From positions 153,598-176,996 of the IMG/VR virus record IMGVR_UViG_3300043313_001192: a stretch of 23,399 nt of DNA; one strand, 5' to 3'. The notes under the pieces were generated by a model, which searched no databases, was not told the DNA's origin, and saw only the letters and a list, made by a program, of their open reading frames with translations. A program made the position numbers and the translations under genes. Origin of the DNA: a virus. Positions 2,337 to 23,399 of the stretch are shown here, piece by piece (the stretch's first letter is position 1; every line of letters starts with the position of its first letter).

Positions 2337-2351
2337 TTTCTAGCTCCTCAG

Positions 2352-5320: not shown

Positions 5321-5322
5321 TG

Positions 5323-5338
5323 CTGACTCCAGGGTCAG
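5323..5338 (-). promoter_or_regulatory. Small hairpin over the capsid gene ribosome binding site
   Basis: On the transcript CTGAC and GTCAG pair as a 5-bp stem around the loop CCTGGA, so the GGA of the Shine-Dalgarno lies in the loop and its last G in the stem, just before the GTG start. The structure is seen in the sequence. A regulatory effect is inferred and may be weak given the short stem. Confidence 0.35.
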
Positions 5339-5408
5339 ATGGGGACTCTCATGACGGTCGTGCGACGTGGGCTCTCAACCGGCCCCAGTGGGTGTTGGGA
5401 CTGTACCA

Positions 5409-5932: not shown

Positions 5933-5953
5933 GCCTGCTCCCCTACCCGTCGA

Positions 5954-8900
5954 CTAGATCAAGAACCGCAGAATGCGCGACAGCTCGGCCGAGATCTGGG
6001 GCTGGGAGAGGACGTCACCTCCGGCCATGAACTCAGAGATCTTGCCCCCGGCTTCGGCTAGATGCTCAGGGTCGAGACGCTGCTCGGCGCGCTTGTACAA
6101 GTCCTGCATCAGGCCCTGGAGGTCGGGGGGCAGGTCGGAGAACTTGTACTTCTCGTTGAGGTCACCGAAGACCAGCGGCAGGTTGGCCACCGCCTCAGCC
6201 AGGTTGCCGTAGCCCTCGCGCAGAGTCTTGACCGCACCCTCGTCCTCGGTGTTCTTCGCGATCTGGTCGACCAGGTCGAGCACACCCTTGGCTGCCTGCT
6301 GGGCGGCCTCGGTGTCACCCTGGTTGGCCGCCTGCTGGACCTCGTCGAGTCCTTCGACCGCTTGCTGGGTCCCGGCCTCACCCTGCAGATCCTTCTTCAG
6401 CTCGGCGATCACCATCCGGAACCGACCCTTCTCATCGCGCGGGTGGTTGCCGGGGTCCCACGGCGAGCCGTCGGGGTAACGGCCACCGGCGGCGAGCAGA
6501 CTGATCCCGTCCAGGGTCTCGTCCGAGGCGCGCAGGATCAGCGGGATGCAGGCCCCACCGGCGATCAGCGCCATCCGTGCGGCGAGATCCTCGACCTCAC
6601 CGGCCACGTCCTGGACCGGGGTGCTCAGCGCGGCCCACGACTCCGGGATCAGGTCGGTCTTGCCGAGCGCGCGGGCGCGCTTCTTGATGTGGCGGCGGAC
6701 CTTGGCCTTGTCGCCCTCCTTGGCCCGGCCGTAGGCACGGATGGCGTTCTTCAGGTCGCCCACCGTGGCGATCGGGTAAGAGCCGTCCGGCAGCGCCTGG
6801 CCCTTCTTGGACATCTCCTTGCGCTTGTCGGTGCCGATGTCGCGGAACAGCTCCTCCCCACCGCTCATCAGTGCTGCCATCCGCTCGCGTGCGGCAGCAG
6901 CCTCCGGCGAGCGCAGCGTGACGAACTTGTTCAGCGCCGCCGCGCGAGCCGCGTCCAGCCGGGCCTGGTACTCCGCACGGACCGGGTCCATCCGGGCCAG
7001 CGCGGCGGCGCGGGCCTGAGACAGTGCTTCGCGCTGCGGGGTCTCCAAGGCGTCGACCCGCTCGATCAACCTGTCCAGCGGCGCCGCGTCGGCATCGCTG
7101 CGGATCCGGGCCAACACCGACGTGCCCGCCGCGACCAACGCGTAGACATGTCCGGAGGCCACCCGAGCACGCACGGTGGGGAAGCCGGGCACGTTGACCT
7201 GGCAGATCGCGACCATCTCCAACCGCCCGTTGATTGGACGCCAGTCTCCGGACGGCGCCGCGGCGCGGACCGCCCGGACCTGCTCGGCGTTGATGCTGGG
7301 GCGCATCGCACCGGCCACCCAGATGCCGTAGGCGTCCTCACCGGCGTGCACGTCGCAGAACGCCGAGGCGGTGTCGTCGTAGTGCTTGACCGCCATCGCC
7401 GCGTCGGACTCCAGCGGAGCGTGTCCACCGGCCAGGGTGATCTGCCCGACCGGGACGTCCTTGCCCTCCTCGGTGCGCAGTAGCCCGGTGTGGAAGTAGG
7501 CGTAGTTCGACCGGCTCCGGGGCGGCCGGGTGGAGAACGGGAGCCCGATGTGCTCGGTGTCCCAGGTCGCCACGTGTCCGTAGACCCGACCGTCGTCGAG
7601 CACGGTCAGCGGCGTCTCCTGCTTCAGTCCCGGATCCTCGAACCACTCCTGGGGCGGGTGAATGGGGATGCCCGCTGCGGTCAACGCCGAGCGAACCATC
7701 TCCTCGGTCTCGGCCTCCGTGACGGGAGTTCCGATGTAGGTTCCGTCGGCAACCATGGGCTCTTCCTCCTCCTGGCCTTCCTCTAGCTCGATGCGTACTT
7801 CCTGGAATGCGGGCTTGGCGACGAGCGTCGCGCCCATCACCCGCCCATTGGTGACAGTCATGTCGTCGGCGACGATCCGCACGATGTCGGGGCTCTCGCC
7901 CTCGCCCGGCTCACGCTCGACCGACTCAGGGCTGCGAGCCTCGGCCTCGAAGTTGTCGAGGTCCACCGAGACGCCGCGCAGGAACTTGTGCCGGACCAGC
8001 CGCTCGGCCTCCTGGCCGTACGGCCCGACGTCGAAGACACCACGGGCGTTGACCAGCGAACCGTCCTCGGAGCGCTCCATCGAGTCGATCCGGCCGACGA
8101 TCACCGAGTCGTCGTGGCCCTCGGCGGTCTTGATCTGCCACATCAGCGGCAGCGGCAGGTCGCGAGTGGTCAGCGAGAGCGGTGCGAAGCTGCGCCCGTC
8201 GCCAGACTTGATCCCGATCGGGGCCAGCACCGGGATCACGAACGGCGAGCCGGACAGCTCGGTGGGGACCTGGTCGGCCCGCTCGGGTGCCTCGACACCG
8301 GCGATCAGCGTGTTCGCACCGGCCAACAGCGCCGAGTAGGCGATCACCTCGTCAGTGCTCAGCAGGTGCACGTCGAAGAGCTGGCTGCGCTCGGACGCCG
8401 AGCCGCGCCGCCCGACGTTGCGCCGGTCACCGGGCCACTCGCCGGTCATCAGGTGGTGCAGGCTGGCGCAGTAGCCCTCGCTCATTCCTGGCTTGGGCAT
8501 GTACTTCTTCAGGTGCCGGTTGCACCGGGTCCAGTCGCCAGGGGTGTTCCAGCGGACCTTGGCGGTACCGCCGGTGCCGACCGTCCAGTACTTCTTCAGC
8601 CGGTCCACGTTGGCGACATCGTTGGGGGTGTCGGCGATGCCGGGGATGCCTGCGGCGAGGATCTCGACGACTTCGCCGTACTCGCCCCAGATGGCGGCGG
8701 CCGACGCGGCCACTGACGCTGCGGCGTCCTTGGCCTCCTGCTCGGCCTCGGCCTTGCCCTCGGGCGTCTGGTAGAACGCCTGCACCTGCGTCATCGTGTC
8801 GTTGAAGGTGGCCTCGTCGAGGGAGACGATCGCGGGTGGTGAGCTGGACTGCAGCTGACGCAGCACCTTGGGATCGTTGACCCAGCCGGTCGCGGTGTAG

Positions 8901-11422
8901 CGCAGCACCTGGGCCTGGTTGCCGGTGGTGCTGGCCGGGATCATCGCCAGCAGCTCCAGCACCGCTTCCTGGTTGGCCTCATCCACCTCGGCCATGTAGA
9001 CCGGCGCGACGTCGGACTGGGCAGGGTCTGTGATGGGCTGACCAGTGCCTCCTGCGTCCGGCAGCACCGGCACCTCGGCCGGTTCGTCCTTCTTCTTCCG
9101 GGCCGCAGCGGTCAGCGAGCCGCGCTTGTAGCCAGGCAGGATCTTGCGGTAGATCCGGTCGATGGCGTCGCGCGCGCTCTTGCCACCGGCATGGATCTTC
9201 TCCAGCCGACGCTTGTAGTCGGCATCGGCCTTGGCCTGCTCACGCTCCCACCGCGCCTTGGACTCCTTGTCGAGCGCCTTCTGGGCCTGGTCACGCGCCT
9301 TCTTCCCGGCGCGCTCTTTCTCGATGAAGTTGGGGTAGTTCGCGATGACCGCCTTGATCGCCTCGGCGTCCATCGGTGGCAGCAGCGACTTCAGCAGCGC
9401 CTTGGGCGTGTGCGCAGTAGCGCGCGGAATGGCCTGGATCTTGTCGAGGTCGACCACACCCGGCTGCACCCTGGTGCTCTTGGCCGGGACCCACTCGGAG
9501 GATCCGTCGTCGTCGTAGGTGACCTGGACCTTCTGGGTGGCCGGGTCGATCTTGGCCACGGTGCCGGTCCGGGCCTGCGGACCGACGGCGATCTTGGAGC
9601 CGGACCTGGCGAACCGGCCGCCAGCGTCACGGACCTGCTTCTTGGCGTTGGCCGCGCGCTCCTCAGGGGTGTAGCCGTCGTCCTCGGCGAAGACCTGGGG
9701 GCGGTAGTCGAAGGTGACCCCGGAGGCGGTGACCACCGCGACCCGGTTCAGCATCTCGTTGTCGAGACCAGGGATGGCCTCGGCCATCACCAGAGCCTCA
9801 CCAGGGTCGACCTCGCGCAGGTCGACCGGCTGGTCGGGAAAGATCGACTGTGCCCGGACCACTTCGCGGGCGGTGTCATCGTCCAGCTCGATGATCTGGG
9901 CAGGGGAGCCGAGGTGGGTCTGCTCCCAGGTTCGGGTGCTCGGCTCGAAGCGGTAGAACATCGCGCCGTCACTGACGTAGAGCTGGTCCACGGTCAGCGA
10001 GTCGTCGCCGGTGTAGGCGGCGTAGTAGGTCAGCGGGTCGTCTTCCTCGGTGCCGCGCCGCTCCCAGAACGCCGTCTTGAGGTCGTCGTCCGCGATCAGC
10101 TCCTCCAGCGGGTCGCTGAGGTCGAACTCCTCCCAGTCGACACCGTGGATCTCAGCTGCTGCCTGGACCGGGGACGGGGGCGCCTCGCCGCCGTCGGCGA
10201 CCTGGGCGTCCCAGTACTGCTTGGTCTCCGCGATCTTGGCGTCGATCTCGGTCTTGTTCGCGTAGTAGTCGGCCAGCGCCGCCTGCTTGTGCAGGGTGTC
10301 GTCGACGGCCTTGCCGCAGATCTCGCACGTGTCCGGGTCATCGACGGTCTCGGAGAAGTAGTGCGCGTCGTCGGGCGTGATGTCGGCCTGGTCGTAGTCG
10401 ACGGCGTCGGGCTGGTGCCGCTCGTCCATCTCGCCGGTGCCGCAGTAGGTGCAGACCTCAGGGTTGCTGGTCACCGGGGAGTACACGTGCGGAGCCTCAC
10501 CGTCGAAGCTCTCTCCCTCGGGAACCTCCTCTTCCTCGACGTCCACGTTGGCGTCGGGGTCGTAGCCCGCGGCGACCAGCGCTTCCGCCTCCACCCGACG
10601 GATGGTCCGGGTGGCCCAGTCACGTCCGGCGTCACCGCCTAGTGCTGAGTAGGTCAGGGCGCGCGCCGAGGGGTACCGAGCCGAGGACTTCGAGCCGCCA
10701 CAGCTGCACGACCCGTTGCCGTCGCACTCGGAGGTGTGCGGGCCGTTGATCACCGAGAACGCGCGTGGCAGCAGCCGCAGCGTGTCGTAGTCGACCTCCT
10801 CGTCCTCGGCCAGCTTCTGCCCGATCGTGGTCGCGGCGGTCGTCGAGTCCTGGGTCTCGGTGGCCTGGGCGACCTTGGCGGCCCAGACCTTCCCGGCGTC
10901 ACCGCCCCAGGAGGCCCAGACCGTGGGGTCGACCTTCTCCTTGGGGTGCCGAGAGAAGTAGGTGTGCATCTGCTGGACGACCTGCGGGTGGATGGCAGCA
11001 CCGCTGGCCAGGTGCTCAGCACGGGCAATGTCGGTGCGGTCGAGGTCAGCCTCGACGCTGCTGCGTGCTGCCTCTCGCACCGTGGCCGGTGGCACCAGGC
11101 TGGTTCCGGCGGCGATCACCGGCAGTTCGATCTCACGCTGGTAGGTGGTGGTCCAGCGCAGTGCCTGTCGGGCGCTGGCCCGGACCGGCTCGGGGACGGT
11201 GAAGGTGCGCAGCGGATCGACGTCGACCGCCAGCGCCGAGCGAGCGAGCAGGGTGGCGCGGCGCTCTTCGGTGCTGCGCCCGGAAGGGACGAAGCCGCCA
11301 TGGCTGGTCAGCTCAGCAGCGCTGAAGACGTCGGTGACGTCACCACTCTTGAGATCGACGGCGACTGCTGACCCGGCGTGCTCGAAGAACATCCAGCCAC
11401 TGCTCGCACCCAGCGTTCGCAT
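5954..11422 (-). CDS. Giant capsid maturation (prohead) protease polyprotein, 1822 aa
   Basis: The protease core is about residues 1050-1200: H1103 in AEGHDDSVIVGRI and S1152 in LRGVSVDLD, 49 residues apart as in HK97-type serine proteases, then MGATLVAKPAF. Such proteases cleave capsid and scaffold inside the procapsid. N-terminal to it are helical modules ending in W172-GGDAGKVWA and LGGDAGRDWA (about 261-270), two H-x11-C-x2-C-x8-H motifs (312-336 and 354-378), an RDAGGRF tag plus SH3-like segment (about 600-660), Lys/Ala-rich helices, and a domain with RWNTPGDWTRCNRHLKKY and GYCASLHH (about 945-1010). C-terminal are an actinophage domain with DGRVYGHVATW, HYDDT and GIWVAGAMRP (about 1240-1430), the LPDGSYPIATVGDLKNAIRA domain, an HPRDEKGRF tag (1660-1668), and about 150 mostly helical scaffold-like residues. 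Free prohead proteases are usually far smaller. TAA lies four codons before the ATG, fixing the earliest start. No Shine-Dalgarno is visible. Confidence 0.88.
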   Translation of the reverse strand: MRTLGASSGWMFFEHAGSAVAVDLKSGDVTDVFSAAELTSHGGFVPSGRSTEERRATLLARSALAVDVDPLRTFTVPEPVRASARQALRWTTTYQREIELPVIAAGTSLVPPATVREAARSSVEADLDRTDIARAEHLASGAAIHPQVVQQMHTYFSRHPKEKVDPTVWASWGGDAGKVWAAKVAQATETQDSTTAATTIGQKLAEDEEVDYDTLRLLPRAFSVINGPHTSECDGNGSCSCGGSKSSARYPSARALTYSALGGDAGRDWATRTIRRVEAEALVAAGYDPDANVDVEEEEVPEGESFDGEAPHVYSPVTSNPEVCTYCGTGEMDERHQPDAVDYDQADITPDDAHYFSETVDDPDTCEICGKAVDDTLHKQAALADYYANKTEIDAKIAETKQYWDAQVADGGEAPPSPVQAAAEIHGVDWEEFDLSDPLEELIADDDLKTAFWERRGTEEDDPLTYYAAYTGDDSLTVDQLYVSDGAMFYRFEPSTRTWEQTHLGSPAQIIELDDDTAREVVRAQSIFPDQPVDLREVDPGEALVMAEAIPGLDNEMLNRVAVVTASGVTFDYRPQVFAEDDGYTPEERAANAKKQVRDAGGRFARSGSKIAVGPQARTGTVAKIDPATQKVQVTYDDDGSSEWVPAKSTRVQPGVVDLDKIQAIPRATAHTPKALLKSLLPPMDAEAIKAVIANYPNFIEKERAGKKARDQAQKALDKESKARWEREQAKADADYKRRLEKIHAGGKSARDAIDRIYRKILPGYKRGSLTAAARKKKDEPAEVPVLPDAGGTGQPITDPAQSDVAPVYMAEVDEANQEAVLELLAMIPASTTGNQAQVLRYTATGWVNDPKVLRQLQSSSPPAIVSLDEATFNDTMTQVQAFYQTPEGKAEAEQEAKDAAASVAASAAAIWGEYGEVVEILAAGIPGIADTPNDVANVDRLKKYWTVGTGGTAKVRWNTPGDWTRCNRHLKKYMPKPGMSEGYCASLHHLMTGEWPGDRRNVGRRGSASERSQLFDVHLLSTDEVIAYSALLAGANTLIAGVEAPERADQVPTELSGSPFVIPVLAPIGIKSGDGRSFAPLSLTTRDLPLPLMWQIKTAEGHDDSVIVGRIDSMERSEDGSLVNARGVFDVGPYGQEAERLVRHKFLRGVSVDLDNFEAEARSPESVEREPGEGESPDIVRIVADDMTVTNGRVMGATLVAKPAFQEVRIELEEGQEEEEPMVADGTYIGTPVTEAETEEMVRSALTAAGIPIHPPQEWFEDPGLKQETPLTVLDDGRVYGHVATWDTEHIGLPFSTRPPRSRSNYAYFHTGLLRTEEGKDVPVGQITLAGGHAPLESDAAMAVKHYDDTASAFCDVHAGEDAYGIWVAGAMRPSINAEQVRAVRAAAPSGDWRPINGRLEMVAICQVNVPGFPTVRARVASGHVYALVAAGTSVLARIRSDADAAPLDRLIERVDALETPQREALSQARAAALARMDPVRAEYQARLDAARAAALNKFVTLRSPEAAAARERMAALMSGGEELFRDIGTDKRKEMSKKGQALPDGSYPIATVGDLKNAIRAYGRAKEGDKAKVRRHIKKRARALGKTDLIPESWAALSTPVQDVAGEVEDLAARMALIAGGACIPLILRASDETLDGISLLAAGGRYPDGSPWDPGNHPRDEKGRFRMVIAELKKDLQGEAGTQQAVEGLDEVQQAANQGDTEAAQQAAKGVLDLVDQIAKNTEDEGAVKTLREGYGNLAEAVANLPLVFGDLNEKYKFSDLPPDLQGLMQDLYKRAEQRLDPEHLAEAGGKISEFMAGGDVLSQPQISAELSRILRFLI

Positions 11423-11613: not shown

Positions 11614-11893
11614 GAGGAATCTCCAATCCTGCATAGTCGAAGTAGGGCAGCAGGTCATCGAGGAACCGGCCGTACTGGGGGTCGCCGGGCGGGACCACGG
11701 ACAGGTCCCCGACCTTGGCCACCGCGGGCAGCAGGTCGTGCGGCACCCAGGTCAGGTAGATGGTGCCGTCGGTCTCGCGCCACGAGTCCGGCGACGCTCC
11801 GGCCAGATAGGTCAGGTAGGAGGCGTAGCCCTCCTGGGTCAGGTGCTGCGGGCAGGGCAGGTCAGTCCGTGGGGGCGGCGGTGGGTGCGGCAT
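11576..11893 (-). CDS. Small hypothetical protein, second of two tandem paralogues (105 aa)
   Basis: Function unknown. The start is set at ATG 11893 rather than the upstream in-frame start at 11953. It is preceded by GGGAGGTGCC at good spacing, and the product then begins MPHPPPPPRTDL, which aligns with the Pro-rich head of the preceding paralogue. The folded part contains YASYLTYLAGASPDSWRET, DGTIYLTWVP, and DPQYGRFLDDLLPYFDYAG. Two Gly/Pro segments differ in length from the paralogue. The gene lies 32 bp inside its neighbour and its own 3' end overlaps the next start by 38 bp. Retention of the WR-x-x-DGTIYL core in both copies suggests both are under selection. Confidence 0.7.
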   Translation of the reverse strand: MPHPPPPPRTDLPCPQHLTQEGYASYLTYLAGASPDSWRETDGTIYLTWVPHDLLPAVAKVGDLSVVPPGDPQYGRFLDDLLPYFDYAGLEIPHATSADHDAEAW

Positions 11894-12242
11894 CGGGCAC
11901 CTCCCTGGTCGGGCGTGGCTCGGGTGCCACCGGCGTCGGCTCCATGAAGTCATACTCCGGCACGACGTGGTTCAGCCAGCGCGCGTAGGTCGGGCTGTCC
12001 TGGGTGATGTAGGTGGGTGAGTCCACCATCCCCACGTCGGGCGCCATCGAGGCAGGCATCCGGCTCAGGTAGATCGTCCCGTCCTGGTCACGCCAGGCAT
12101 CGACCGGGTCCGCGGCCAGGAACTCCAGCCATTCGGCGTGCTCCTCCGGGGTCCCACCCTCGGGCGGCTGCAGGTCAGACCGGGGCTTCGGTGGCGGCGG
12201 GATCTTGGTCGGCGGCTGGGGCTGCTGGGGCTGCTCCGTCAT
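11862..12242 (-). CDS. Small hypothetical protein, first of two tandem paralogues (126 aa)
   Basis: Function unknown. A Pro/Gln-rich N-terminus of about 25 residues (PPTKIPPPPKPRSDLQPP) precedes a short folded domain with AEWLEFLAADPVDAWRDQD, DGTIYLSRMP and SPTYARWLNHVVPEYDF. It ends in a Pro/Ala-rich tail (PTREVPDAAPTAAPTD). The domain is clearly related to that of the next gene, which has WRETDGTIYLTWVP and PQYGRFLDDLLPYFDY in the same order. The ATG at 12242 follows a strong Shine-Dalgarno (GAGGAGGTGCC) that lies inside the 3' end of the 76-aa gene. The stop overlaps the next start by 32 bp. The compact overlapping layout supports translation as part of the head operon. No catalytic or membrane motif is visible. 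Confidence 0.7.
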   Translation of the reverse strand: MTEQPQQPQPPTKIPPPPKPRSDLQPPEGGTPEEHAEWLEFLAADPVDAWRDQDGTIYLSRMPASMAPDVGMVDSPTYITQDSPTYARWLNHVVPEYDFMEPTPVAPEPRPTREVPDAAPTAAPTD

Positions 12243-12405
12243 CTGGCACCTCCTCGGTACTCACGACTGCGCTGGGGAACATGGCGCGCCATTCCTCGGG
12301 CGTCATCCTGATCTTGTCGAACGCCGGGTCGTTGGGCGGGTTGCCCTCGTAGTTCAGCATCATCAAGAACTCGACCGCAGTCAGCGACTCCACATCGACA
12401 GCCAT
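12175..12405 (-). CDS. Small hypothetical phage protein (76 aa)
   Basis: I do not recognise the family. The N-terminal half is compact and amphipathic (SLTAVEFLMMLNYEG, then DPAFDKIRMTPEEWRAMFP). The C-terminal third is disordered and Ala/Pro/Asp-rich and begins with EEVPDDGAAP. The gene starts at ATG 12405, sharing one base with the stop of the giant gene (TGATG). The GTG at 12408 is an in-frame alternative. GAGG lies 7 nt before the ATG. The 3' end overlaps the next gene by 68 bp, so the EEVPD codons double as the Shine-Dalgarno and start of that gene. The same arrangement recurs at the next junction. Its position between giant head proteins suggests a head-associated or accessory role, which cannot be refined from sequence. 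Confidence 0.65.
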   Translation of the reverse strand: MAVDVESLTAVEFLMMLNYEGNPPNDPAFDKIRMTPEEWRAMFPSAVVSTEEVPDDGAAPAAPAADQDPAATEAPV

Positions 12406-15400
12406 CACTCATCCTCATCTCCAGGAGGGATTGCACCAGGGGGCAGTGGCGGCGGCGGAGCCTCCGGGGACACTCCCGCCCACTCGAACGAGTCGTAGAA
12501 CTCATCGCGCTCCCGTACGGCCTCGGCGCTGTAGTCGATCTGCTCCGGGCGAGAGACGAGGTCAGGCTCGGTCTCGTCGACCACGTCGGCGGCAGCGGCG
12601 ATCGGGGCAGCAGGAGCAGGAGGCAGCGTGGGGCCAGGGTGCTCGGGGACGCCGGTGTACTCGACCAGCTCGTCGAAGGAGTGCGGCAGGTCCAGCTCGT
12701 TCTCCAGGTCCCACCAGACCGAGGGCGAGACGTAGTGGTCCCTGGCGGTGCCCCACCCGTCGTTGATGCGCTGGCCCGCCGCCTTCCAGACGCTGATCTT
12801 GAACTTGTCGAACTCCGCCTGGCTCATGCCCTTCTTCGGACGCACCGGGCGGGTGCCCTTGCTGCTCTTCTTCTTGTAGGCCACCAGCGTGCCCAGGAAC
12901 TGCCGCGCCGCGTTGGTGGCCACGTAGGTGCGCAGGTCGTGGTTGATCAGGTCGGGGATGCCCGTCGACTCACGCAGGTAGTTGATCGACTGGTCGGCGG
13001 TGACGTCGCCGAAGATGAACTCGTTGCGCCCCTTGCCCTTGCTCCACTTCTCCAACGCCGCCTGCAGCCGGGGCTCCTTGATCGTGTAGTCGTTGTCGAT
13101 CCCGGACTTGCCCATGAAGTCGAACCGCACCGAGTTCTGGTTGAACCGCAGGTGCTTGGGCATCAGCGACGTCCCGCCGATCACCTGCTCCAGCTTCTTG
13201 CGCTTCTGGCTCTTGGTGCGGTTCTTCCCCTTCGCGTTGTCCACCCGCATGCCGGTCTCGATCAGGGTGGCCACCAGCGCCGCGACCGGGTCGTCCATCG
13301 CCTCGTTCAGCGCCTTCTCGCGCAGATCCGCGTGCACCTTGTGCAGCGCCTTCTCGCGCTGGAACTTCTGGGCGTTGCCGGTCTTGCTGTGCTTGTAGTC
13401 GTAGATGTTCGTGGGTGTGTCGTTGCCCGGCATGATGACCTTCATCAGCAGGGTGCCGTCCTGAGAGGCCCAGTTGCGGTTGTACCAGACCCCGATGGCG
13501 TCCTTGGACGGGCCGGTGAAGTCGGGGTTCGCCTCCTTCATCGCCGCCATCACCGAGTCCCAGTTCTGGTCGCCCGGTCTGATCTCGGTCATGTCGAGCT
13601 GGCCGTGGGCCTCGCTCTTGTGCTTGCTGGCCCGCTCGATCTGAACCACGTTCGGCAGCGGCTGCTCCTGCTTGGGTGCTGGTGCTCCCAGCGCCGAGGA
13701 GATCTGGTTCTGGACAGGTACCCGCTTCTTGACGACGACCGGGCTCTTCATCATCTCGGGCAGCGTGTGGTTCTCGAAGTTGTCGAAGAACTCGAAGATC
13801 GCCTGCCCGGCTTCGGTCTTCCTGTCTCCCATTTCCCGCAGCGTGATCCCGTCAGCACGAGCCGGACCCCAGTGCCCGTGCAGCAGGGCGCTTCCACCCT
13901 TGGTGTAGACAGACTGCTTCCAGTTCTCCCCGTCGCGCCCCTCCTCGGGCTCCGCCAGCATCCGGCGCATCGCGGCGTACGCGGCGTACCCCTGTGCCCA
14001 CATCTCGGTGGTCCCGGCAGCGCCGTTGTGGGTAGTTGCCCCCTCGTCCTGGTTGCGGTAGTACCAGTTCAGCAAGGTCGCGTCCGGGGCATCACCGTAG
14101 GAGGCGATCTCCTGCAGCTTGGCGCGCAGCGCCAGGAACTCAGGGTCGCCGTCGCTGTAGAACCCGCGCCTGCCCTGGGAAACAGAGACCTCACCGATCA
14201 TCGAGTCCAGCGCGTGACCCAGCTCGTGGCTGACCACGTTGGTGACGCCGTCACCCCACTGGAAGGTCGAGTCGGCGACCACGACGTTGTTCTCGTGAGG
14301 GATGTAGTGCCCGGTGGTCTGCTCAGGTGTGCGGTCGTCAGCTCCATCGTGAGGAGGGTTGACCCAATCTGGCGACGTCACGATCGAGGCGTAGTTCGTG
14401 CTGGCCTCGGTGACGTTGCTGCGCGTGCGGTGGATCCCGCCGCCGTAGGCGGCGTACATCGAGTTCAGCGCAGCGGCGACGTTGGGGGTGATCTCCGAGA
14501 CGCCTTCGTTGAACGCCATGTCGGCCACGACCGTCTGGTCGGTGCCCTCACCAGTGCGATCGTCGACAGTCAGGTTGGACGAGAGCGTGTTCTCCCCATC
14601 CCAGGTGAGCAGAGTCTTCTTGCCGCCGGTCAGGTCGGAGACCAGCTCGGCGTCCCCGTTCTTGACCGCCTCGTCAAGATCCAGGTCAGTCAGGGTGCTG
14701 TTCAGGAACCCGAAGCGATCCTGGTCTGAAGCCGCGCGGATCGCGTCAGCGAGTGCGGGGGAGACGCCGCCGTGTGCACGCTGGTACTCCGCAGCCTGGT
14801 TGACGATGTGGGCGTAGACACCGTGCCCGGCGGCACTGCTGCTGTTCGCCAGCTGGAGGGCGATCTGGTCGACCAGTGCGATCGACTCTTTCTCAGCAGG
14901 CTTGCCGGTGTCCTGAACCAGACGGAAGTCCATCATCGACTTGTCGGCCTTCTGCCGCATCTCGACCGGTGGATAGGCGTCCATGCTGAGCAGGTCGCCC
15001 ATCTCGTGCTTGTCGAGCTGCTCACGCAGCACGTCTTCCAGAGGTGCTGGGTCGAGGCCCGCACTGCGGAGCTGGTCGAACATCGTCTTGGCTGCGGTGA
15101 TGTCGTCGGTCAGCCGCCGAGCGGACTCGGTGGCCGCCACCACCTCGAAGTCGTGCATCTTGCTGCGGACCTCCGGGTCGCGCAGTGACATCGCATGCTC
15201 CGCGGTCGAGGCGACCTCGGGCATCATGTCGATGAACTCGTCGGTGTTCTCGATCGTGTTGCCCGGACGCATCGCGCGTTCAAGGTTGCTGCCCTGGATC
15301 TTGGCTGATCCGGCACGCTCCATGGGTGTGGACAACCAGTCGCTGGCGTAGAGCTTGTCCACCTCGGCCTTGCCCTCGGAGGCGGCCGAGACGACCTGCT

Positions 15401-18400
15401 CACCGAGGATCTGGTTGATGTCACCGCTGGCCAGATCCGGGTCCACCTGGGCGTCGAAGTTGGCCCACAGATCGAGCACGTCCTGGACGGCCTCGTCGTT
15501 GTAGCGACCCAGCACCGTGCTGACGTGCTCGGGTGTGAGCTGGTCGAAGCCGCCACGCCTCATCGAGAACATCATCCGGGTCTCGTCGGCGAACTTCGTC
15601 TCGGCTTCCAGCAACCGGTTGTTGAGCAGCTGGTCAGCGATGCTGCCCTTCTCGACGTTCTTGGAGAGCTTCTCGTTGATCTGGTGCAGCGACTCGAAGT
15701 AGTCGGTGATGGCCTGACTGCGCTTGTCCTGGAACTCGGGGCTGACTACCAGGTCGCGGATGGCAGCGGGGTCGGAGGCACTGAGGCGAAAGGGCGCGTC
15801 GCCACCACCTGCCTCTCCAGGGGTCTCACCCTGTGACGGGCCTTGCCCGCCGTCCAGCTCGTCAGCCACTCGACGCAGTTCGTCGACGGCCGAGCTGGGA
15901 TCGCTGAGTCCGAAGTTGCCTTCGAGGTAGTCGGCCAGCCTGCGCAGATCCTCCGACAGCTCGGTGTAGGGACCCTCGCTGGTGATCCGGCCGCGGATCA
16001 GGCCGAGCTGGGCGTTGGCCTCGTCGGTCAGCTCGGTCCAGCCGACCGGGCCGTTGTCGCCCTCGGTCTCGTTCTCGGTCTCGATCGCGCTCTCCACGTC
16101 GGAGAGAGCGCTCTGGACCTCGGCTACTTGGGCGGCTTCTGGCCCGCTGCCTGCTGGCCCTTCGGGCGCTTGCTCTTCGGGAGGAACACCGGGTTCGGCT
16201 TCTCCACCTTCCGGGCTTGGGCTCTCCAGTCGCCTGGCCCCCGGAACTCCTTCTTCTGGTCCTGTGCCACCGGCTTGCTCCTCTGCCACGTGTGGGGGCC
16301 AGTATCCCAGCCCGTCCTTGAAGTTGTACGCGCCACCCTCGGATCCGGAGTACGCACCGACCGCCTCGACGTCGTCGAGGTTGTCGAAGACCAGCACCGG
16401 GTCGATCTCGTAGTTGCCGGTGTCGTCGTTGCGGAACACGCCGAGGTGGGCCTGCTCCGCCCACAGGGGGCTGTCCTCGTCGGCGCCGAACTGGGCCAGC
16501 GCCTGCTCCATGCCAGCGTCGAAGTCCTCCTGGCTGGACCCGATCGGGACATTGACGGTGTCAGTACCGGGCGGGCGGAAGGTGATCGCGTAGGCGTCCT
16601 CGTCGCCGGTGATCGCCTGCCCGGTGTGGGCGTCGATGGTGACGCCGCCCCACTCCTCCTGGACCGAGTCCCAGGCGGTGCTCTTGACCTCGTCCCAGGT
16701 CTGGCCCTGCAGCGCGTCGGGTGCTGCGGTGTTCTCCAGGATGCCGTCCAACCGGTCGCGGCCCTTGAGCGCCAGCGCGGTGTACTCCTCCGGGGAGACC
16801 TCGCGGGTACGCGGGGTCTCGGGGTTGGAGAACTGGCTCGGGGTGAGCGGCTCCACCTCGGGCATCCCGGCAGCGTCCAGTGCCTCACGCGCGGTGCCCG
16901 CTCCCTGCTGCGGAGCCTCCGCGACGGCAGGAGCCTGCTCGGGTGCTCCCTCGGGAGCCGTGGCCGGACCGGTGACACCACCCATGGCGTCGAGCCGGTC
17001 GGCGTGCTCGCGGGCTCGGGCGGAGGGAGCGTCGGTGGGTGTGTCGGCCCCGTCGTAGGCGTCCGCGGCGTCGCGGAACTTCTGCGCCGCGGCGGCGTTG
17101 TCGCCGTTCTTGATGTCGGCGCGGGCGCCGTCGACCAGGCTGCGGACCTCGTCGCTGCGGGACAGACCGCTCAGGAGGTTGCCGACGTCACTGGTCCGGC
17201 GGAGCGCAGTGTTCTGGCTGGAGTAGCCGCGCGCGCCCTCTTCCCCGGCGGCGCGTGCGAGTCGGTGCGCCATCTGGCTGGCGACACCCTTGTCCGAAGG
17301 CTTCTCGAACTGGTCTGCTCCCAGGCCATCGACGTGGTCCGCCAGCCGTGAGGCGTCCGCACCATTGATCTCCTCGCCGTTCTTGACCGCCTCGGTGATC
17401 CGGCTGATCTCCGGGTCGGCCCCTTCGACTCCCGCCACGTGGTCGAGCATCTTCTTCTGCTTCGACGTCGAGCGGGCAGCGACCCTGCCGGTCCCGGCAG
17501 TGCGGACTGCGCGCTCCTCGGAGCGGGGGTCCTCGACCGCCTCGGCGGGCATGTCCTTGTCACTGTCGAGCGCGACGTTCATCATCGCGCCGTCGGCGAC
17601 GTTCACGTACTGGTTGGTGCCTGCGGTCCTCGCCGCGTCGCTGGCGTCCTGCTCCTCGTCGAAGACACCGACCCGCGCCATCCGGTAGCGGCCGTCGTCC
17701 TCGTCGTGCCAGATCGAGACGCCGTCGAAGCTGCTGCCCTCGGTCTCGGCCAGGAAGTCGGTGATCTCCTCGGCAGTGGGCTCGGCGTCATACTCCGAGA
17801 CGGTGGCGTGGTCCACCACGTAGAAGCCCTCGTCCACCTGCTGGTCACCCTGCATCACCAGCGCCGAGCCGTCATCAGCCTGGACCGCATCGGAGACCGC
17901 GTCGTCGACCTTGTCGACCACCGGGTCCACACCTTCCGGCGTCACGTCCGGAGCGCCCTCGGGACGCTCCTGGCGGGAGACCGGCTGCGACGCGCCACCG
18001 AAGAGGTCAGTGCCCGCGTCGACCTTGGCCTGCAGCACCTGCAGCAACGGTGGCCTGTTCTGGCCACGCCCACCCTGGGGGTTGATGCCGGTGAGCATCG
18101 CGTGCAGCTTGCTGCCCTTCAGGTTCGCGTTGACGTTGGTGTTGACGACCCTGGACAGCTCGCCCACCGCGCTGAGCAGTGCCTGGGCGTCCTCGGCCTC
18201 TACTGCGGCGGTGACACCGTCCAGGTACTTGCGCAGCTGCCTGCGCTGGGTGGGGTCCTTGGCCGCAGCCATCGCCTCCTCGCCGAACCCCTGCAGGATC
18301 TTGTTCATCTGCTGTGCTTCGGACACCGCGGCAGGCGTCTCTTCAGGCGGCACCTCAGCCCCCTGCTCCGGGCCGGTCCCGGTCTCCTGAACGGCCTGCT

Positions 18401-20576
18401 CGACGGCCTGGGTGTCGTTGGAGGGGATCGGGTCCTCGGTGTTGTCGTTGACGATGGTCTGGCCGTCCTCCTCACGGACGGTGGCTCCCTCGGGCGTGAT
18501 CTTCTCGCTCGGATTGTCCGGGTTCTGCGGTGCCTCGCCGCCCATCTCCGGATCCGGTGTGGGTGCCTCGGGCGGCTCGGGTGCCGGGTCGCTGGGCTCG
18601 CGGAAGTACCCGGCCGAGGCCATGAACAGCTGGTCCCGCTTGTCCAGCAGGTCCTGGTCCTCGGCACTGAGTTCCTGCCCGGCGGCCCTGGTCTGGTCGC
18701 GCTTGTTGTAGAGCGCGTCGATGTCGAACAGCTGGTCCTGGAAGGCGGCGTCGGTGGACATCGCGGCCTGGATGGCGTTCGCGTCGCCGTCGTCGCGGAT
18801 CACCTGGGAGACCGAGGTGGCGCCCATCTCATCGGTGAGCAGGGCGGCCTGCTCGCGGGTCGGCACGTAGTTGTTGGTGTTGGACTCCGACTCACCGGGA
18901 TAGACCTCGCTGGTCGGGCCGTGGTGACGCCTCAGCTTGTTCGCGGTGACGCGGGAGGACTTGCCGTTGTACCAGTACACCTTGGTGGTGTTCGCGTTCG
19001 GCTCCATGTAGGAGATGTAGCCCTCTTCGCCGTTGGGTCCCTGCACGGCGTCGCCGATCCCCAGCCTCTGGCCGTTGGCGTCCTTCTTCTGGCGCAGGTG
19101 GATGGGGACGACGTCGAAGAGCCCGGCCCCGCCACCGGTCCGCGAGCGCCTCAGCGCTCCTGGGGTGGCGTACCGCTCGCGCACGGCGGTGATGTACTCC
19201 TCGGTGAACGACTTCACCAAGGACTTGCTGGCCTCGTCCTGCCCCTCCAGCGCGAGCCGCTGGAACAGTGTGCTCTGCTGGTCCTCGCTGGCCATCTCGA
19301 TCGACTTGGCGTCCACCGGATGGTCGTAGTAGGGGACCGGGACCTTGCTCTTGGTCCCGTCGGCGTTCTTGACGGTCTTGGTGTAACCCTTCTCCATCAG
19401 CGGGTCGAGGTCGCGGACGTAGATGTGCTTCTTCTGGGCGCTGTCGGTGTAGAGACGGACGATCGGACCGGTGAACGCGGCCCGTCCCCTCTTGGTCGCG
19501 TCGACGTCCACGATGTGGCCGACCCGGACCACGGTCTCCCCGGTCTTGTCGACGTGGTGTCGGTCACCGGGAGCGACCTGCTGGGCCTGCTTGGAGCCGA
19601 CCAGTCGATCCCGTGCAGCGCCGAGCTTCGCGTAGGCCGAGCGCCAGTACTCGGGCAGCCCTTCGGTCTGGGGCTCGGCGACGGTGTCGCGGACCTCGGC
19701 CTTGACCGGCTGCTCCAGCTGGCCCTCGACCAGCGAGCCGGAGGTGATGTCCCAGACCTTGGCGTCCTCGGCGTAGCTCTTGGCCAGCTCGTTCTGCGCC
19801 GCCTCCTCACGGACCTCGGGCTGGTTGCCCTGCATCCGCCCCTGACTGGTCTCGATGTCCTCGACGGTCTTGTCCCCGAGGGAGTGCCGGGCGGTGTAGC
19901 TGTTCTTGATGACGTCGTCGAGGTTCGCCAGCCGGGTGGCCTCCTCCTTGGGCAGGTTGGCCTTGGCCTCCTCGTAGTCCTCACCGTCGGCGAACCCCTT
20001 GCCGCGCTCGTCCCCGACTGCCTCGCCGACCTCGCGGAACAGGTCGATCGCCTTCTGCTTGTCGGCGACCGACTTCGGGTCGCGCGGGTTGGGCGGCAGC
20101 ATCGCCAGCCGCTGGGCCTCGGCCATCTTCTTGGCCTCTTTGCCCATGCCCATCTTCTTCAGGGAGTTGATGGCGGTGGTGACACCGACGTTCTCCTGGT
20201 TCTGCAAGATGCCGACGTGGCTGCCCTTGCCCGCGAGCTGAGCCTTGACGGTGCGGACCTGGACCTTGTCGTGGGGCACCTTGACGTAGCCGTTCGCGTC
20301 GACCCGTGGGTCAGCACCAGGGGTGGTGCCTTGGATCTTGACCAGCAGGTTGCCGTCCCGGTCGATGCCCGCGACCCGGCCCGACGCAGTCCCGCCACCG
20401 GGCAGGTCGAAGGTGACGAAGGAGAAGGTCCGGATGAACCGCCCGTTCTCGTCGCGGGGGTGCTTGAGCGGGTTCCACTTCCGGCCCATGGAGTCGATGA
20501 CGACGATGAACTCGTCGCGGTGCCCCAGGTTCATGAACTCGGTGTTGGCGTACCGAAAGATCTGCGGGGTGGTCAT
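12405..20576 (-). CDS. Giant 2723-aa virion-type protein with HELGH metalloprotease-like and topoisomerase IB-like domains
   Basis: The frame is unbroken. Domains in order: a W34-N-P-x-x-HPRDENGRF tag (to residue 47) followed by an SH3-like beta segment (about 47-115); helical stretches; two more SH3-like segments (about 350-390 and 505-550); an acidic Pro-rich linker (about 660-750); a repeated domain of the YxV...W/F-x-D-D/E-x-G-x-Y type (about 917-995 and 1306-1425); a second linker (about 1424-1490); a long helical region. Next is a zincin-like domain with H2117-E-L-G-H2121 and a candidate third ligand, E2191, in TTEMWAQGYAAY. Last is a type IB topoisomerase-like core (about 2340-2640) with R2444 (ETGMRVDN), K2490 (MGKSG), R2549 (HDLRTY) and Y2615 (ARDHYVSPSV). 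The tail is PPPPLPPGAIPPGDEDE. The ATG overlaps the upstream stop by 4 nt and has only a weak Shine-Dalgarno. Position between portal and maturation protease suggests a packaged protein. That role is inferred. Domain calls rest on motifs and are firmest for the topoisomerase. Confidence 0.85.
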   Translation of the reverse strand: MTTPQIFRYANTEFMNLGHRDEFIVVIDSMGRKWNPLKHPRDENGRFIRTFSFVTFDLPGGGTASGRVAGIDRDGNLLVKIQGTTPGADPRVDANGYVKVPHDKVQVRTVKAQLAGKGSHVGILQNQENVGVTTAINSLKKMGMGKEAKKMAEAQRLAMLPPNPRDPKSVADKQKAIDLFREVGEAVGDERGKGFADGEDYEEAKANLPKEEATRLANLDDVIKNSYTARHSLGDKTVEDIETSQGRMQGNQPEVREEAAQNELAKSYAEDAKVWDITSGSLVEGQLEQPVKAEVRDTVAEPQTEGLPEYWRSAYAKLGAARDRLVGSKQAQQVAPGDRHHVDKTGETVVRVGHIVDVDATKRGRAAFTGPIVRLYTDSAQKKHIYVRDLDPLMEKGYTKTVKNADGTKSKVPVPYYDHPVDAKSIEMASEDQQSTLFQRLALEGQDEASKSLVKSFTEEYITAVRERYATPGALRRSRTGGGAGLFDVVPIHLRQKKDANGQRLGIGDAVQGPNGEEGYISYMEPNANTTKVYWYNGKSSRVTANKLRRHHGPTSEVYPGESESNTNNYVPTREQAALLTDEMGATSVSQVIRDDGDANAIQAAMSTDAAFQDQLFDIDALYNKRDQTRAAGQELSAEDQDLLDKRDQLFMASAGYFREPSDPAPEPPEAPTPDPEMGGEAPQNPDNPSEKITPEGATVREEDGQTIVNDNTEDPIPSNDTQAVEQAVQETGTGPEQGAEVPPEETPAAVSEAQQMNKILQGFGEEAMAAAKDPTQRRQLRKYLDGVTAAVEAEDAQALLSAVGELSRVVNTNVNANLKGSKLHAMLTGINPQGGRGQNRPPLLQVLQAKVDAGTDLFGGASQPVSRQERPEGAPDVTPEGVDPVVDKVDDAVSDAVQADDGSALVMQGDQQVDEGFYVVDHATVSEYDAEPTAEEITDFLAETEGSSFDGVSIWHDEDDGRYRMARVGVFDEEQDASDAARTAGTNQYVNVADGAMMNVALDSDKDMPAEAVEDPRSEERAVRTAGTGRVAARSTSKQKKMLDHVAGVEGADPEISRITEAVKNGEEINGADASRLADHVDGLGADQFEKPSDKGVASQMAHRLARAAGEEGARGYSSQNTALRRTSDVGNLLSGLSRSDEVRSLVDGARADIKNGDNAAAAQKFRDAADAYDGADTPTDAPSARAREHADRLDAMGGVTGPATAPEGAPEQAPAVAEAPQQGAGTAREALDAAGMPEVEPLTPSQFSNPETPRTREVSPEEYTALALKGRDRLDGILENTAAPDALQGQTWDEVKSTAWDSVQEEWGGVTIDAHTGQAITGDEDAYAITFRPPGTDTVNVPIGSSQEDFDAGMEQALAQFGADEDSPLWAEQAHLGVFRNDDTGNYEIDPVLVFDNLDDVEAVGAYSGSEGGAYNFKDGLGYWPPHVAEEQAGGTGPEEGVPGARRLESPSPEGGEAEPGVPPEEQAPEGPAGSGPEAAQVAEVQSALSDVESAIETENETEGDNGPVGWTELTDEANAQLGLIRGRITSEGPYTELSEDLRRLADYLEGNFGLSDPSSAVDELRRVADELDGGQGPSQGETPGEAGGGDAPFRLSASDPAAIRDLVVSPEFQDKRSQAITDYFESLHQINEKLSKNVEKGSIADQLLNNRLLEAETKFADETRMMFSMRRGGFDQLTPEHVSTVLGRYNDEAVQDVLDLWANFDAQVDPDLASGDINQILGEQVVSAASEGKAEVDKLYASDWLSTPMERAGSAKIQGSNLERAMRPGNTIENTDEFIDMMPEVASTAEHAMSLRDPEVRSKMHDFEVVAATESARRLTDDITAAKTMFDQLRSAGLDPAPLEDVLREQLDKHEMGDLLSMDAYPPVEMRQKADKSMMDFRLVQDTGKPAEKESIALVDQIALQLANSSSAAGHGVYAHIVNQAAEYQRAHGGVSPALADAIRAASDQDRFGFLNSTLTDLDLDEAVKNGDAELVSDLTGGKKTLLTWDGENTLSSNLTVDDRTGEGTDQTVVADMAFNEGVSEITPNVAAALNSMYAAYGGGIHRTRSNVTEASTNYASIVTSPDWVNPPHDGADDRTPEQTTGHYIPHENNVVVADSTFQWGDGVTNVVSHELGHALDSMIGEVSVSQGRRGFYSDGDPEFLALRAKLQEIASYGDAPDATLLNWYYRNQDEGATTHNGAAGTTEMWAQGYAAYAAMRRMLAEPEEGRDGENWKQSVYTKGGSALLHGHWGPARADGITLREMGDRKTEAGQAIFEFFDNFENHTLPEMMKSPVVVKKRVPVQNQISSALGAPAPKQEQPLPNVVQIERASKHKSEAHGQLDMTEIRPGDQNWDSVMAAMKEANPDFTGPSKDAIGVWYNRNWASQDGTLLMKVIMPGNDTPTNIYDYKHSKTGNAQKFQREKALHKVHADLREKALNEAMDDPVAALVATLIETGMRVDNAKGKNRTKSQKRKKLEQVIGGTSLMPKHLRFNQNSVRFDFMGKSGIDNDYTIKEPRLQAALEKWSKGKGRNEFIFGDVTADQSINYLRESTGIPDLINHDLRTYVATNAARQFLGTLVAYKKKSSKGTRPVRPKKGMSQAEFDKFKISVWKAAGQRINDGWGTARDHYVSPSVWWDLENELDLPHSFDELVEYTGVPEHPGPTLPPAPAAPIAAAADVVDETEPDLVSRPEQIDYSAEAVRERDEFYDSFEWAGVSPEAPPPPLPPGAIPPGDEDE

Positions 20577-22162
20577 GGCAGCAGGTCCCGGTCGTCGGTG
20601 CGCGCGGAGAGGTCGCCCTGGGCCAGCCGGATCAGGCTGTTCACCCGCGCCTGGGCGATCAGGTCGCGCGGCAAGGGTGGGCGGCTCTGCGGCGCGGTCA
20701 TGGTGTACTCCCTGACCCCGCGCACATAGGCCGCGCGCAGGGCGGTGTCGGAGATGGTGGAGAGCTGGGTCTTGAGGGCGAAGAGGTCCGGAACGTCATT
20801 GCCGTTCTGGGCTGGGACCGCAGTGACGTCTTGAGCTGGCGCAGCTGCCTGAGCTGCCTGCGCAGCTGTGGCCGATGTCGACTGACGCAGCCAGTGCTGC
20901 GGGATCATGTGCTGCAGGCTCAGCTCGCGGGCGCGCTTGGCCAGCCGACGCCGGGTGAAGACCCGCGACAACTCGGCTTCGATCTGGTCGGCGGCCTCGC
21001 AGGCGGTGGCCAGCGACTCAGCATCGTCGACGGCGAGCCGAGGCGCGGTGCCGAAGACGTCGATGAGCAGGTGGTCGCCCTCCAGCGGAGGGTCCTCGAT
21101 CGCCTCGGTCATCGCCTTGGTGAGTGCGGCCACAAACTCCGCGTCGAGTCCCATGTCATCGCCGGTGAGCAGGTTGGGCTCGGTACCAGACGCTGGCCCA
21201 GTCACCAGGTAGCCGAAGTGCGCGGAACCATCGCCGTTGAGCTCGATTATCGGAGCGTCGGCGTCGTCGGTCGCGTGAGACATGATCGAAGCGTCGGAGT
21301 CGATGTTCGCGTGGGACCGTGCCTTCTTCTCCTCCCACTCAGCTACCGCGGCGCACGCTTTGGCTCGTGATCCCGCGTTCTCGTGCTGAACGCCAGGGAA
21401 GTTCAGGTCACCGGTCGCGCACGCCTTCTTCACGGCGTTGACTGCCGTGGCGATCGCGTGTCCTTGCTTCATGCCCTTCTCTTGGAGGTGCTTGGCGATC
21501 CGCTTGATGTACTTGGGCAGACCGCCGACCTTCTCGACCCAGTTGAACTCGTTGTCGTCGATGGCCATGACGTCAGAGAACTCGACGTCGGGAAGGTCTT
21601 CGTCCGAGTCAGGACCCTCGGGGATGGTCGACTCGGCGGACGGTCCGAGCGGGTACTCGGTGTGCTCCTCACCGTCCCAGACCGCGAGTCGGTCGAAGAT
21701 GACCTCCTCGGGGAGGTCGTCGTCGGGGACCGGCTCCTCCAGGTCGTAGCCGAGGGTGACGTGCGGGGTGTAGCCGGGGAACTGCTGGACGGCCCCGGTG
21801 CCCTCGCGCAACTCCGGGGCCGCCAGCAGGTTCTCGCGGAGGGCAGGCAGCTCGTCACCGCCGAGGTGCACCACCTGGGCGTTCTCGTCGCCGAGCAGCC
21901 CCTGGGACTCGACCTGGCTGGTGACCGGCCCCGTGCTGCTCTCCGCTACGCCGCGCACTGCGTCCTGGACCGCCTCCATGTCCAGAGCCGGGTTCTCCTC
22001 AGGCTTGCCCAGCCAGAGCACCGTGGCGTGCTTGGGCTCGGAGACGTCCCCGATGTGGTGGATCGGCTCGGTGGCGGTGGGGATCGCCACGATGCAGCGC
22101 CCGGAGTTCTTGCGCTCCTCGAAGTCGTCGGGCTCATCAGGAGTGATCGGGATCTCGGTCAT
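20573..22162 (-). CDS. Head-module protein with N-terminal 2H phosphoesterase domain
   Basis: The 529-aa product has at least three parts. Residues about 22-172 look like a 2H phosphoesterase (LigT/CPDase fold): the two diagnostic motifs are H45-A-T47 in PKHATVLWLG and H134-V-T136 in YTPHVTLGY, about 89 residues apart, followed by FDRLAVWDGEEHTEYPL, the usual closing strand. Residues about 208-283 (WVEKVGGLPKYIKRIAKHL through SRAKACAAVAEWEEKK) match a small helical domain that recurs in actinophage head genes. Residues about 290-529 are unrecognised, mostly helical with an Ala/Gln-rich linker. Known 2H enzymes act on 2',3'-cyclic or 2'-5' phosphodiesters and on cyclic nucleotides, and the substrate here is unknown. 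In related phages similar 2H domains sit inside the maturation protease gene. Here the domain is on its own gene between portal and the giant protein, with 4-nt ATGA overlaps at both ends. Catalysis is inferred from the motifs only. Confidence 0.75.
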   Translation of the reverse strand: MTEIPITPDEPDDFEERKNSGRCIVAIPTATEPIHHIGDVSEPKHATVLWLGKPEENPALDMEAVQDAVRGVAESSTGPVTSQVESQGLLGDENAQVVHLGGDELPALRENLLAAPELREGTGAVQQFPGYTPHVTLGYDLEEPVPDDDLPEEVIFDRLAVWDGEEHTEYPLGPSAESTIPEGPDSDEDLPDVEFSDVMAIDDNEFNWVEKVGGLPKYIKRIAKHLQEKGMKQGHAIATAVNAVKKACATGDLNFPGVQHENAGSRAKACAAVAEWEEKKARSHANIDSDASIMSHATDDADAPIIELNGDGSAHFGYLVTGPASGTEPNLLTGDDMGLDAEFVAALTKAMTEAIEDPPLEGDHLLIDVFGTAPRLAVDDAESLATACEAADQIEAELSRVFTRRRLAKRARELSLQHMIPQHWLRQSTSATAAQAAQAAAPAQDVTAVPAQNGNDVPDLFALKTQLSTISDTALRAAYVRGVREYTMTAPQSRPPLPRDLIAQARVNSLIRLAQGDLSARTDDRDLLP

Positions 22163-23399
22163 GCGGTGGCCTGTTCAGGGGCAGGAGGAGGTGCAGCACC
22201 AGGCTCGGGCGGCGCGGCTGGCGGAGGTGTGGCGGGTGACGACGACGGAAGTCCGCCACCGGGGGGCGGGGGTGGTGCGGCGTCGCTGGGTGGTACCCCG
22301 AGGGCCTGCTGCACCTCGGGCGGCAGCGGGGACCCGGTCTGCTCCTGGTGGACGGCGCGCATGGTGCCGAACAGCTCGGGGGCGACCTGCTGCAGCACTG
22401 CCTCGGTCAGCTCGGGGGAGAGCACGCCCTTCTCGATGACCATCCGGCGGGCCAGTTCCTCGCCCTCGGGCTTGTCGTCCTCGGTGAAGCCGTGCGCGCG
22501 ACGCCAGGCGGCGGCCGAGATCAGGTTCCGGTCGAAGCCGTCGTCGGCCAGCGTCTCGGGGTCGGCCTGGATGACGATGTCGGAGGGGTCGTACCAGATC
22601 GTGGTCTTGCGGATCAGCTCCTCGTCCTGGCCCATCGCGAGCAGCGCCTGGCGGAAGTAGACCATCGTCATGGCGTCGACGATCATCAGCAGCAGCGGCT
22701 CGACGTGCGCCTTGTAGAGGCTCTTGTCGATCTGCACCGCGTTGGAGTACTTCACGTTCGCCAGCCCGGTGACGACGTCCTTGGGGACGTCGATGCCCTG
22801 CATGATCCGATCCAGGGCGCGGTCGGCCCGCTCGGCGAGGGCGGGGTCGAAGGAACGCTCAAACTTGAAGAGCTTAATCGCCTCACCCAGCTCTTTGGGA
22901 CCCCTGATCAGCAACGGGACGACGGCAGCGGCGGAGTCCTGGTCGGAGATGGGAGTAGTCATCGCCGCGATCAGTTCTTCCTCGAACTCGTCGTGGTCCT
23001 CGATCGGGGGCTCGGGTTCACCCAGGGGCAGAGCTGGGTCGGGCTCGGCGGGCATCGCCGAGGCGGAGAGCCCGTCGGGGATGAACATGGCGCCTGCGTT
23101 CAGCCGGGACTGGGCCGTAGCTCGTGCGGCGTGGCTGAACAGCAGCAGGTCTTCGCAGGGCTGCAGCACGCCGATCATCGAGGAGTCGGCCTGCAGGCTC
23201 CAGCGCGGGTGGCTGCGCCAGATCCGGCCGACGAACGCGGTGGGCGGCAGCTCGATGTACTCGTGCTGGCGCGCGTCCATCCGCTGCTTGAGCCGGACCT
23301 TGCCGTCCGGGGAGACGATGACCTCGTCGACGCTCTTGATGTCCCAGGTTTCCGGCTCCCCACTGCCGAGCCGCTCGGGTACCTGGACCAAGTAGCACT
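22159..23399 (-). CDS. Phage portal protein (5' end outside window)
   Basis: Portal proteins form the dodecameric ring at one capsid vertex through which DNA is packaged and ejected. The visible 413 codons are the middle and C-terminal part. The frame stays open to the window edge (codons for Cys-Tyr precede the TTG at 23391), so that TTG is probably internal. The portal call rests on an actinophage-type core with FVGRIWRSHPRWSLQADS, a helical SRLNAGAMFIPDGL stretch and a later segment with IWYDPSDIVIQADPE. This is followed by a helical region (RMVIEKGVLSPELTEAVLQQVAPELFG in pieces) and a Pro/Gly/Ala-rich disordered tail of about 60 residues that ends in PAPEQATA. The stop overlaps the start of the next gene by 4 nt (ATGA), which suggests translational coupling. 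The family call is by sequence resemblance only. The terminase expected upstream is not in the window. Confidence 0.8.
   Translation of the reverse strand, partial: CYLVQVPERLGSGEPETWDIKSVDEVIVSPDGKVRLKQRMDARQHEYIELPPTAFVGRIWRSHPRWSLQADSSMIGVLQPCEDLLLFSHAARATAQSRLNAGAMFIPDGLSASAMPAEPDPALPLGEPEPPIEDHDEFEEELIAAMTTPISDQDSAAAVVPLLIRGPKELGEAIKLFKFERSFDPALAERADRALDRIMQGIDVPKDVVTGLANVKYSNAVQIDKSLYKAHVEPLLLMIVDAMTMVYFRQALLAMGQDEELIRKTTIWYDPSDIVIQADPETLADDGFDRNLISAAAWRRAHGFTEDDKPEGEELARRMVIEKGVLSPELTEAVLQQVAPELFGTMRAVHQEQTGSPLPPEVQQALGVPPSDAAPPPPPGGGLPSSSPATPPPAAPPEPGAAPPPAPEQATA

Follow-up and report, generated by a model that had tools for sequence, protein, structure and literature searches.

What is a protein of 2,723 residues, with both a peptidase-like and a topoisomerase-like domain, doing among the head genes of a large actinobacterial phage? 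The question is raised by the last 23.4 kb (positions 153,598 to 176,996) of the 176,996-base virus record IMGVR_UViG_3300043313_001192, a stretch of 23,399 nucleotides that we analysed whole and refer to as the window. The gene lies at 12405..20576, on the minus strand, as do all window features described here, and its product, the giant protein, is most suitably classed with the polyvalent proteins of phages. We think it likely that this protein is packaged and injected, that its topoisomerase domain would relax the incoming genome early, and that its zincin domain would act as a processing enzyme or an effector.

A preliminary description of this DNA had reported a single uninterrupted 2,723-codon frame with an HPRDENGRF tag and an HELGH motif. 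All three were recovered: the frame has no internal stops, and the tag and motif occupy residues 39–47 and 2117–2121. Guanine-plus-cytosine (GC) content at third codon positions is 0.89 over the frame (0.98 within the topoisomerase part), and a close relative, contig IMGVR_UViG_3300043313_003968 (G002; homologue at 1982-10138 of locus L012), keeps the frame open for 2,719 codons. Together, these two observations exclude a chance frame.

The C-terminal topoisomerase domain

By profile, by fold and by four catalytic residues, the C-terminal domain (residues 2311–2640; 12657..13646) is a type IB topoisomerase domain, with predicted activity. Residues 2401–2568 matched PF01028 (Topoisom_I) with an E-value of 1.5e-12 and 47.8 bits, well above the cut-off of 23.7, which confirmed the family named in the preliminary description. 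A two-sequence profile searched against the PDB retrieved the topoisomerase IB structures 6z01 (E 5.6e-9), 2f4q (E 6.7e-6) and 2b9s (E 1.4e-5). Structure prediction agreed in part: all 22 Foldseek matches at E ≤ 1e-3 were topoisomerase IB folds, and the AlphaFold model from which they were obtained was weak (predicted local distance difference test, pLDDT, 51; predicted template modelling score, pTM, 0.44).

We aligned the domain with sequences from G002 and from phages PaBG and BS162P1 (alignment A6). Four residues were invariant: Arg2444, the first catalytic arginine (13245..13247); Lys2490, the catalytic lysine, within GKSG (13107..13109); Arg2549, the second catalytic arginine, within DLRT (12930..12932); and Tyr2615, the predicted nucleophile (12732..12734). 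The site of the fifth residue, usually His or Asn, falls at Asn2605-Asp2606 (12759..12764), a pair retained in G002, with the aspartate nine positions ahead of the tyrosine. Asn can occupy the fifth position in bacterial topoisomerase IB enzymes. The complete catalytic core first described thus holds for four residues and is left in doubt at the fifth.

A tyrosine recombinase (integrase) was considered and rejected, as PF00589 was unmatched across the whole record and the best recombinase fold, 5jk0, reached only E 0.93 in Foldseek. A phage type II topoisomerase was sought across the record and was not found.

The zincin-like domain

Ahead of the topoisomerase lies a zincin-like metallopeptidase domain (residues 1980–2290; 13707..14639), which matched the peptidase family phrog_4415 (E 2.5e-7). 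In a four-sequence alignment (A5), His2117, Glu2118 and His2121 of the HELGH motif (14214..14228) were invariant, as was Glu2191 (14004..14006), the predicted third zinc ligand. The metalloprotease-like assignment of the preliminary description is supported by motif and family; similarity by fold is weak. Lethal-factor-type zincins topped the Foldseek search at E 4.7e-3, which is not significant at 0.001, from a model of low confidence (pLDDT 58.5, pTM 0.69). Similarity to the same type in the PDB profile search was weak (E 0.23), and the only NCBIfam match, to M6, was sub-threshold. Stand-alone zincins of about 437 residues, kin to this domain, occur in two other actinophage-like contigs (L095:2287-3597 and L096:5577-6890), at loci that also hold portal-like genes.

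A motif shared with the maturation-protease protein

The HPRDENGRF sequence (20436..20462) is a candidate capsid-targeting signal. Across 25 aligned giant proteins the only invariant columns were Arg41 and Gly45, and in a further 18 the motif’s R, D and G hardly varied. The pattern RD..G[RK][FW] occurred 65 times in 588 frames, compared with 0.35 expected from shuffling. In the 177-kb record the giant protein holds one copy and the maturation-protease protein two, and no further frame of 80 residues or more contains it; a looser R[DG] pattern adds three matches, which look like chance. Every match in phages DSL-LC01 and Phendrix fell within head-module proteins, and Mimi and Big4 had a few chance-like matches outside the head module. 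In the maturation-protease protein, the C-terminal copy is followed by a stretch that is similar in Big4 and DSL-LC01.

Because only the giant protein and the maturation-protease protein share this motif in the record, it suggests a capsid-targeting signal, and recruitment to the procapsid would be the simplest reading. The idea is comparable to the capsid-targeting sequences of T4 internal proteins. A literature search, within which subscription papers and supplements were outside scope, found no description of the motif. The segment that follows it (residues 48–110; 20247..20435) is possibly SH3- or barrel-like; a weak BPL_C match at residues 54–80 was below cut-off, and we did not accept kinship with biotin ligases.

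Cargo behind the portal in relatives

Searches with the giant protein itself reached no relatives: tblastn against annotated phages, with the whole protein and with the zincin domain, gave no matches, nor did single-sequence scans of IMG/VR with the whole protein and each domain. Relatives were reached solely through a portal alignment search; in IMG/VR, we examined 84 distinct portal relatives whose downstream sequence extended for 3 kb or more. The frame behind the portal was at least 700 residues long in 75 of the 84, at least 1,500 in 45 and at least 2,500 in 25, and the motif R-D-x-x-G-R-F/W was found downstream of the portal in 76. In all annotated phages with related portals, a giant protein lies between portal and protease; its length is 3,289 residues in DSL-LC01, 2,709 in Mimi, 3,113 in Atuin, 2,235 in Pumpernickel, 1,756 in Big4 and 1,479 in Phendrix.

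The enzymes carried in this slot vary. A Pfam search of 43 slot proteins identified RNase_T/DnaQ exonuclease domains in nine, UvrD helicase in seven, topoisomerase IB in two and DnaG primase in one, and ADP-ribosyltransferase and kinase-like domains were also seen in relatives. A single frame of 2,881 residues or more (L031:5855-14497) combines a CHC2 zinc finger, a DnaG core, Toprim, a DnaQ exonuclease and a UvrD helicase. Atuin gp71 (L092:1693-11034), annotated solely as a DNA helicase, joins UvrD to an ADP-ribosyltransferase (PF03496, above cut-off) in its 3,113 residues. A search with a two-sequence alignment of the topoisomerase domain found no further topoisomerase fusion; the corresponding zincin search gained two zincin relatives.

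Gordonia phage GMA2 has a portal 41% identical to that of the window and, directly behind it, a 2H-containing gp10 annotated as a “putative structural protein.” The annotation comes from a study that included virion mass spectrometry (PMC4524720), and it bears only indirectly on packaging.

A divergent block within conserved head genes

The homologue in G002 is full length, at 2,719 residues, and 52% identical overall. This compares with identities of 97% for the portal, 92% for the major capsid protein (its frame assigned by position) and 86% for the protease protein. Within the giant protein, identity stood at about 79% for the first 100 residues, was 88% across residues 1501–1600 and dropped to 26% across residues 1601–1700. 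From about residue 1600 to the end, the half that contains zincin and topoisomerase was about 24–49% identical per 100-residue window. At the nucleotide level only short scraps of homology remained from about 15786 to 11881, between flanks that are 78–87% identical. Nucleotide and protein identity thus both collapse over a block (11881..15788) that comprises residues ~1597–2723 and the small gene or genes behind.

The G002 topoisomerase domain is 38% identical, with unchanged catalytic residues; overall, the four core topoisomerase residues, HELGH and Glu2191 were retained at 38–44% identity in an intact frame. Nonsynonymous and synonymous divergence (dN/dS, by NG86, giant protein versus G002) was 0.13/0.41 at the N-terminus and 0.66/0.55, near 1, in the topoisomerase block, both being crude pairwise values. 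These values are consistent with an effector block that is exchanged or evolves rapidly while selection still maintains catalysis. To judge from these comparisons, the C-terminal half looks like a fast-changing yet functional cargo block within conserved head genes.

A proposed role and its alternatives

We propose that the shared N-terminal motif probably recruits the giant protein to the procapsid beside the maturation-protease protein, and that the giant protein would accompany the genome into the head and then into the cell, its C-terminal half serving as an exchangeable effector block. The zincin would probably cut the polypeptide to free the neighbouring domain, or cut a host protein. 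The topoisomerase would relax supercoils, most likely those of the incoming phage genome as transcription and replication begin, and such relaxation would need neither ATP nor phage gene expression. A capsid-internal protein that bears a zincin and a topoisomerase IB domain, as first described, is supported by its sequence, by its position between portal and protease, by a motif that only the protease protein has in common with it, and by comparative genomics. Because helicase, primase, exonuclease and ADP-ribosyltransferase domains occupy the same slot in relatives, action in a new host cell is favoured over action in packaging; relaxation of the genome during packaging, which the preliminary description had also entertained, is the less likely role.

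Several observations weigh against this proposal. Both AlphaFold models are of low confidence, and the fifth catalytic position of the topoisomerase, where Asp2606 aligns with Asn2605 adjacent, does not plainly hold the His or Asn expected there. The dN/dS near 1 in the topoisomerase block would also fit relaxed constraint. Topoisomerase IB was found in only 2 of the 124 records searched (many of them fragments), in two phages only, and many relatives’ giant proteins have no recognisable enzyme; part of the class could have a purely structural role. In addition, presence in the virion is a prediction from gene content and position, for this phage as for any topoisomerase-bearing relative.

The same divergence would be expected if the protein were instead an anti-host takeover effector, whose topoisomerase reduces supercoiling of the host chromosome or creates lesions in it and whose zincin cuts a host protein, since a sharply divergent effector half within conserved head genes is what diversifying conflict should produce. 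The ADP-ribosyltransferase and kinase-like domains in the slot suit such an effector, as does the fact that the zincin’s nearest solved folds, in a weak match, are host-attacking peptidases. However, the cargo that can be recognised in relatives consists mostly of replication and repair enzymes, which suits action on an incoming genome, and topoisomerase IB reseals the breaks that it makes and should be a poor poison. We regard an anti-host role as unlikely, though it is the strongest competitor of the packaged genome-relaxing enzyme.

Considerably less probable is a C-terminal half that has lost activity or is degenerating, in a protein that serves only as structural filler. The low identity, the dN/dS values and the non-canonical fifth position would all follow, but retention of the core catalytic residues of both domains in an open frame would not, nor would a third-position GC of 0.98 in the topoisomerase part. 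A role confined to head assembly, with the topoisomerase relieving torsion on DNA during packaging, the zincin taking part in proteolytic maturation and no injection, would account for the portal-protease position and for the motif held in common with the protease protein. Yet a general packaging role should be conserved, while the rarity of topoisomerase IB among related records and the wide variation in slot cargo show otherwise, and maturation is already supplied by the protease protein; we rate this explanation marginally lower than filler, and very improbable.

A broader proposal, which we advance tentatively and judge to have slightly less than an even chance, is that the motif, in the form Q/H-x-R-D-x-x-G-R-F/W, is a common capsid-targeting signal by which a large group of actinobacterial phages load an exchangeable giant DNA-enzyme protein (topoisomerase IB, helicase, primase or exonuclease) into their heads. 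If true, each phage would arrive in the cell with replication enzymes of its own, as a starter set. Topoisomerase IB seems to be an enzyme type new to the proteins thought to be delivered with phage genomes, and the slot behind the portal is a general cargo position that changes fast across a large phage group, most of it uncultured. Some relatives are in culture, namely Arthrobacter phages Mimi and Atuin, Microbacterium phages Big4 and Pumpernickel, and Gordonia phage Phendrix, and they make the packaging-signal and delivery ideas testable in laboratory strains.

Neighbouring genes

The gene order is portal, a 529-residue protein gene with a 2H-phosphoesterase domain, the giant gene, two small frames and the maturation-protease protein gene. 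The placement between portal and protease given in the preliminary description is thus correct, with the refinement that the gene immediately upstream is the 2H gene and not the portal. Translational coupling to that gene is real in the form of an ATGA overlap, with the stop at 20573–20575 and the giant gene’s start at 20576. The portal protein (22159..23397; phrog_776, E 5.7e-71) is truncated at the record end. The 2H protein (20573..22162) matched phrog_24711 (E 1.2e-15) and PF13563 (E 7.9e-6, just under cut-off), and its similarity to anti-CBASS Acb1 (E 6e-4) stayed below threshold. Identity to G002 is 49% over its N-terminal 282 residues and 81% over the remainder, which makes this gene another block of rapid change.

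Two mutually similar small frames (11862-12242 and 11576-11953) come next after the giant gene, where the divergent block ends. One or two small genes also occur behind the giant gene in relatives, and roles as partner, chaperone or inhibitor are conceivable. The maturation-protease protein that follows (1,822 residues; 5954..11422; phrog_859, E 9.8e-97; phrog_18402, E 2.9e-57) carries its two motif copies at residues 598 and 1662. Elsewhere in the record, a frame (G000:C1:80001-92219, minus strand) is cut by the end of the examined stretch and spans 4,073 residues or more.

Comparison with known systems

Passages of Iyer et al. 2017 (PMC5512222) describe polyvalent proteins, which both phages and conjugative elements encode, as large zincin-bearing proteins made with virion genes, their zincins forming 12 clades. 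The giant protein resembles these in its very large polypeptide, its unrelated enzymatic domains (topoisomerase IB and a zincin-like peptidase in 2,723 residues), a zincin, the common hub of the class, and its setting among virion genes, here and in relatives, from the portal and 2H genes to the maturation protease. The same passages report 2H domains fused to portal or MuF domains. It differs in two respects: the main text of PMC5512222 names no topoisomerase domain (the word occurs once, in a reference title), and the N-terminal motif is absent from those passages. Our literature search, of the scope given above, likewise found no packaged phage topoisomerase IB. The preliminary description, which knew of no described packaged fusion of topoisomerase IB and zincin, needs narrowing: zincin-bearing giants among virion genes were already described (PMC5512222), and it is the topoisomerase IB domain that appears new to the class, as far as the literature search shows.

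The virion RNA polymerase of phage N4 also combines a nucleic-acid enzyme with a lethal-factor-like zincin in a giant virion protein (PMC5512222), but there the polymerase precedes the zincin, whereas in the giant protein topoisomerase IB follows it. Arthrobacter phage proteins Mimi gp77 and Atuin gp71 share the position directly behind the portal and the motif, and a terminal HEFGH motif in Mimi gp77 resembles the window’s zincin. In contrast to the giant protein, both carry a UvrD helicase, are annotated “DNA helicase” and have no topoisomerase IB, and Atuin gp71 has its ADP-ribosyltransferase in addition. The topoisomerase IB enzymes of jumbo phages PaBG and Motura (PMC7824862) belong to the same family and their catalytic residues align, but they are encoded by separate genes outside the portal-protease interval and are not fused to a zincin; that of PaBG is about 562 residues long, its gene lying near thymidylate kinase. 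Vaccinia topoisomerase I (H6R) is a separate enzyme of an unrelated eukaryotic virus and went undetected in one mass-spectrometry study (PMC1540416), which nevertheless counts topoisomerase I among the known virion enzymes.

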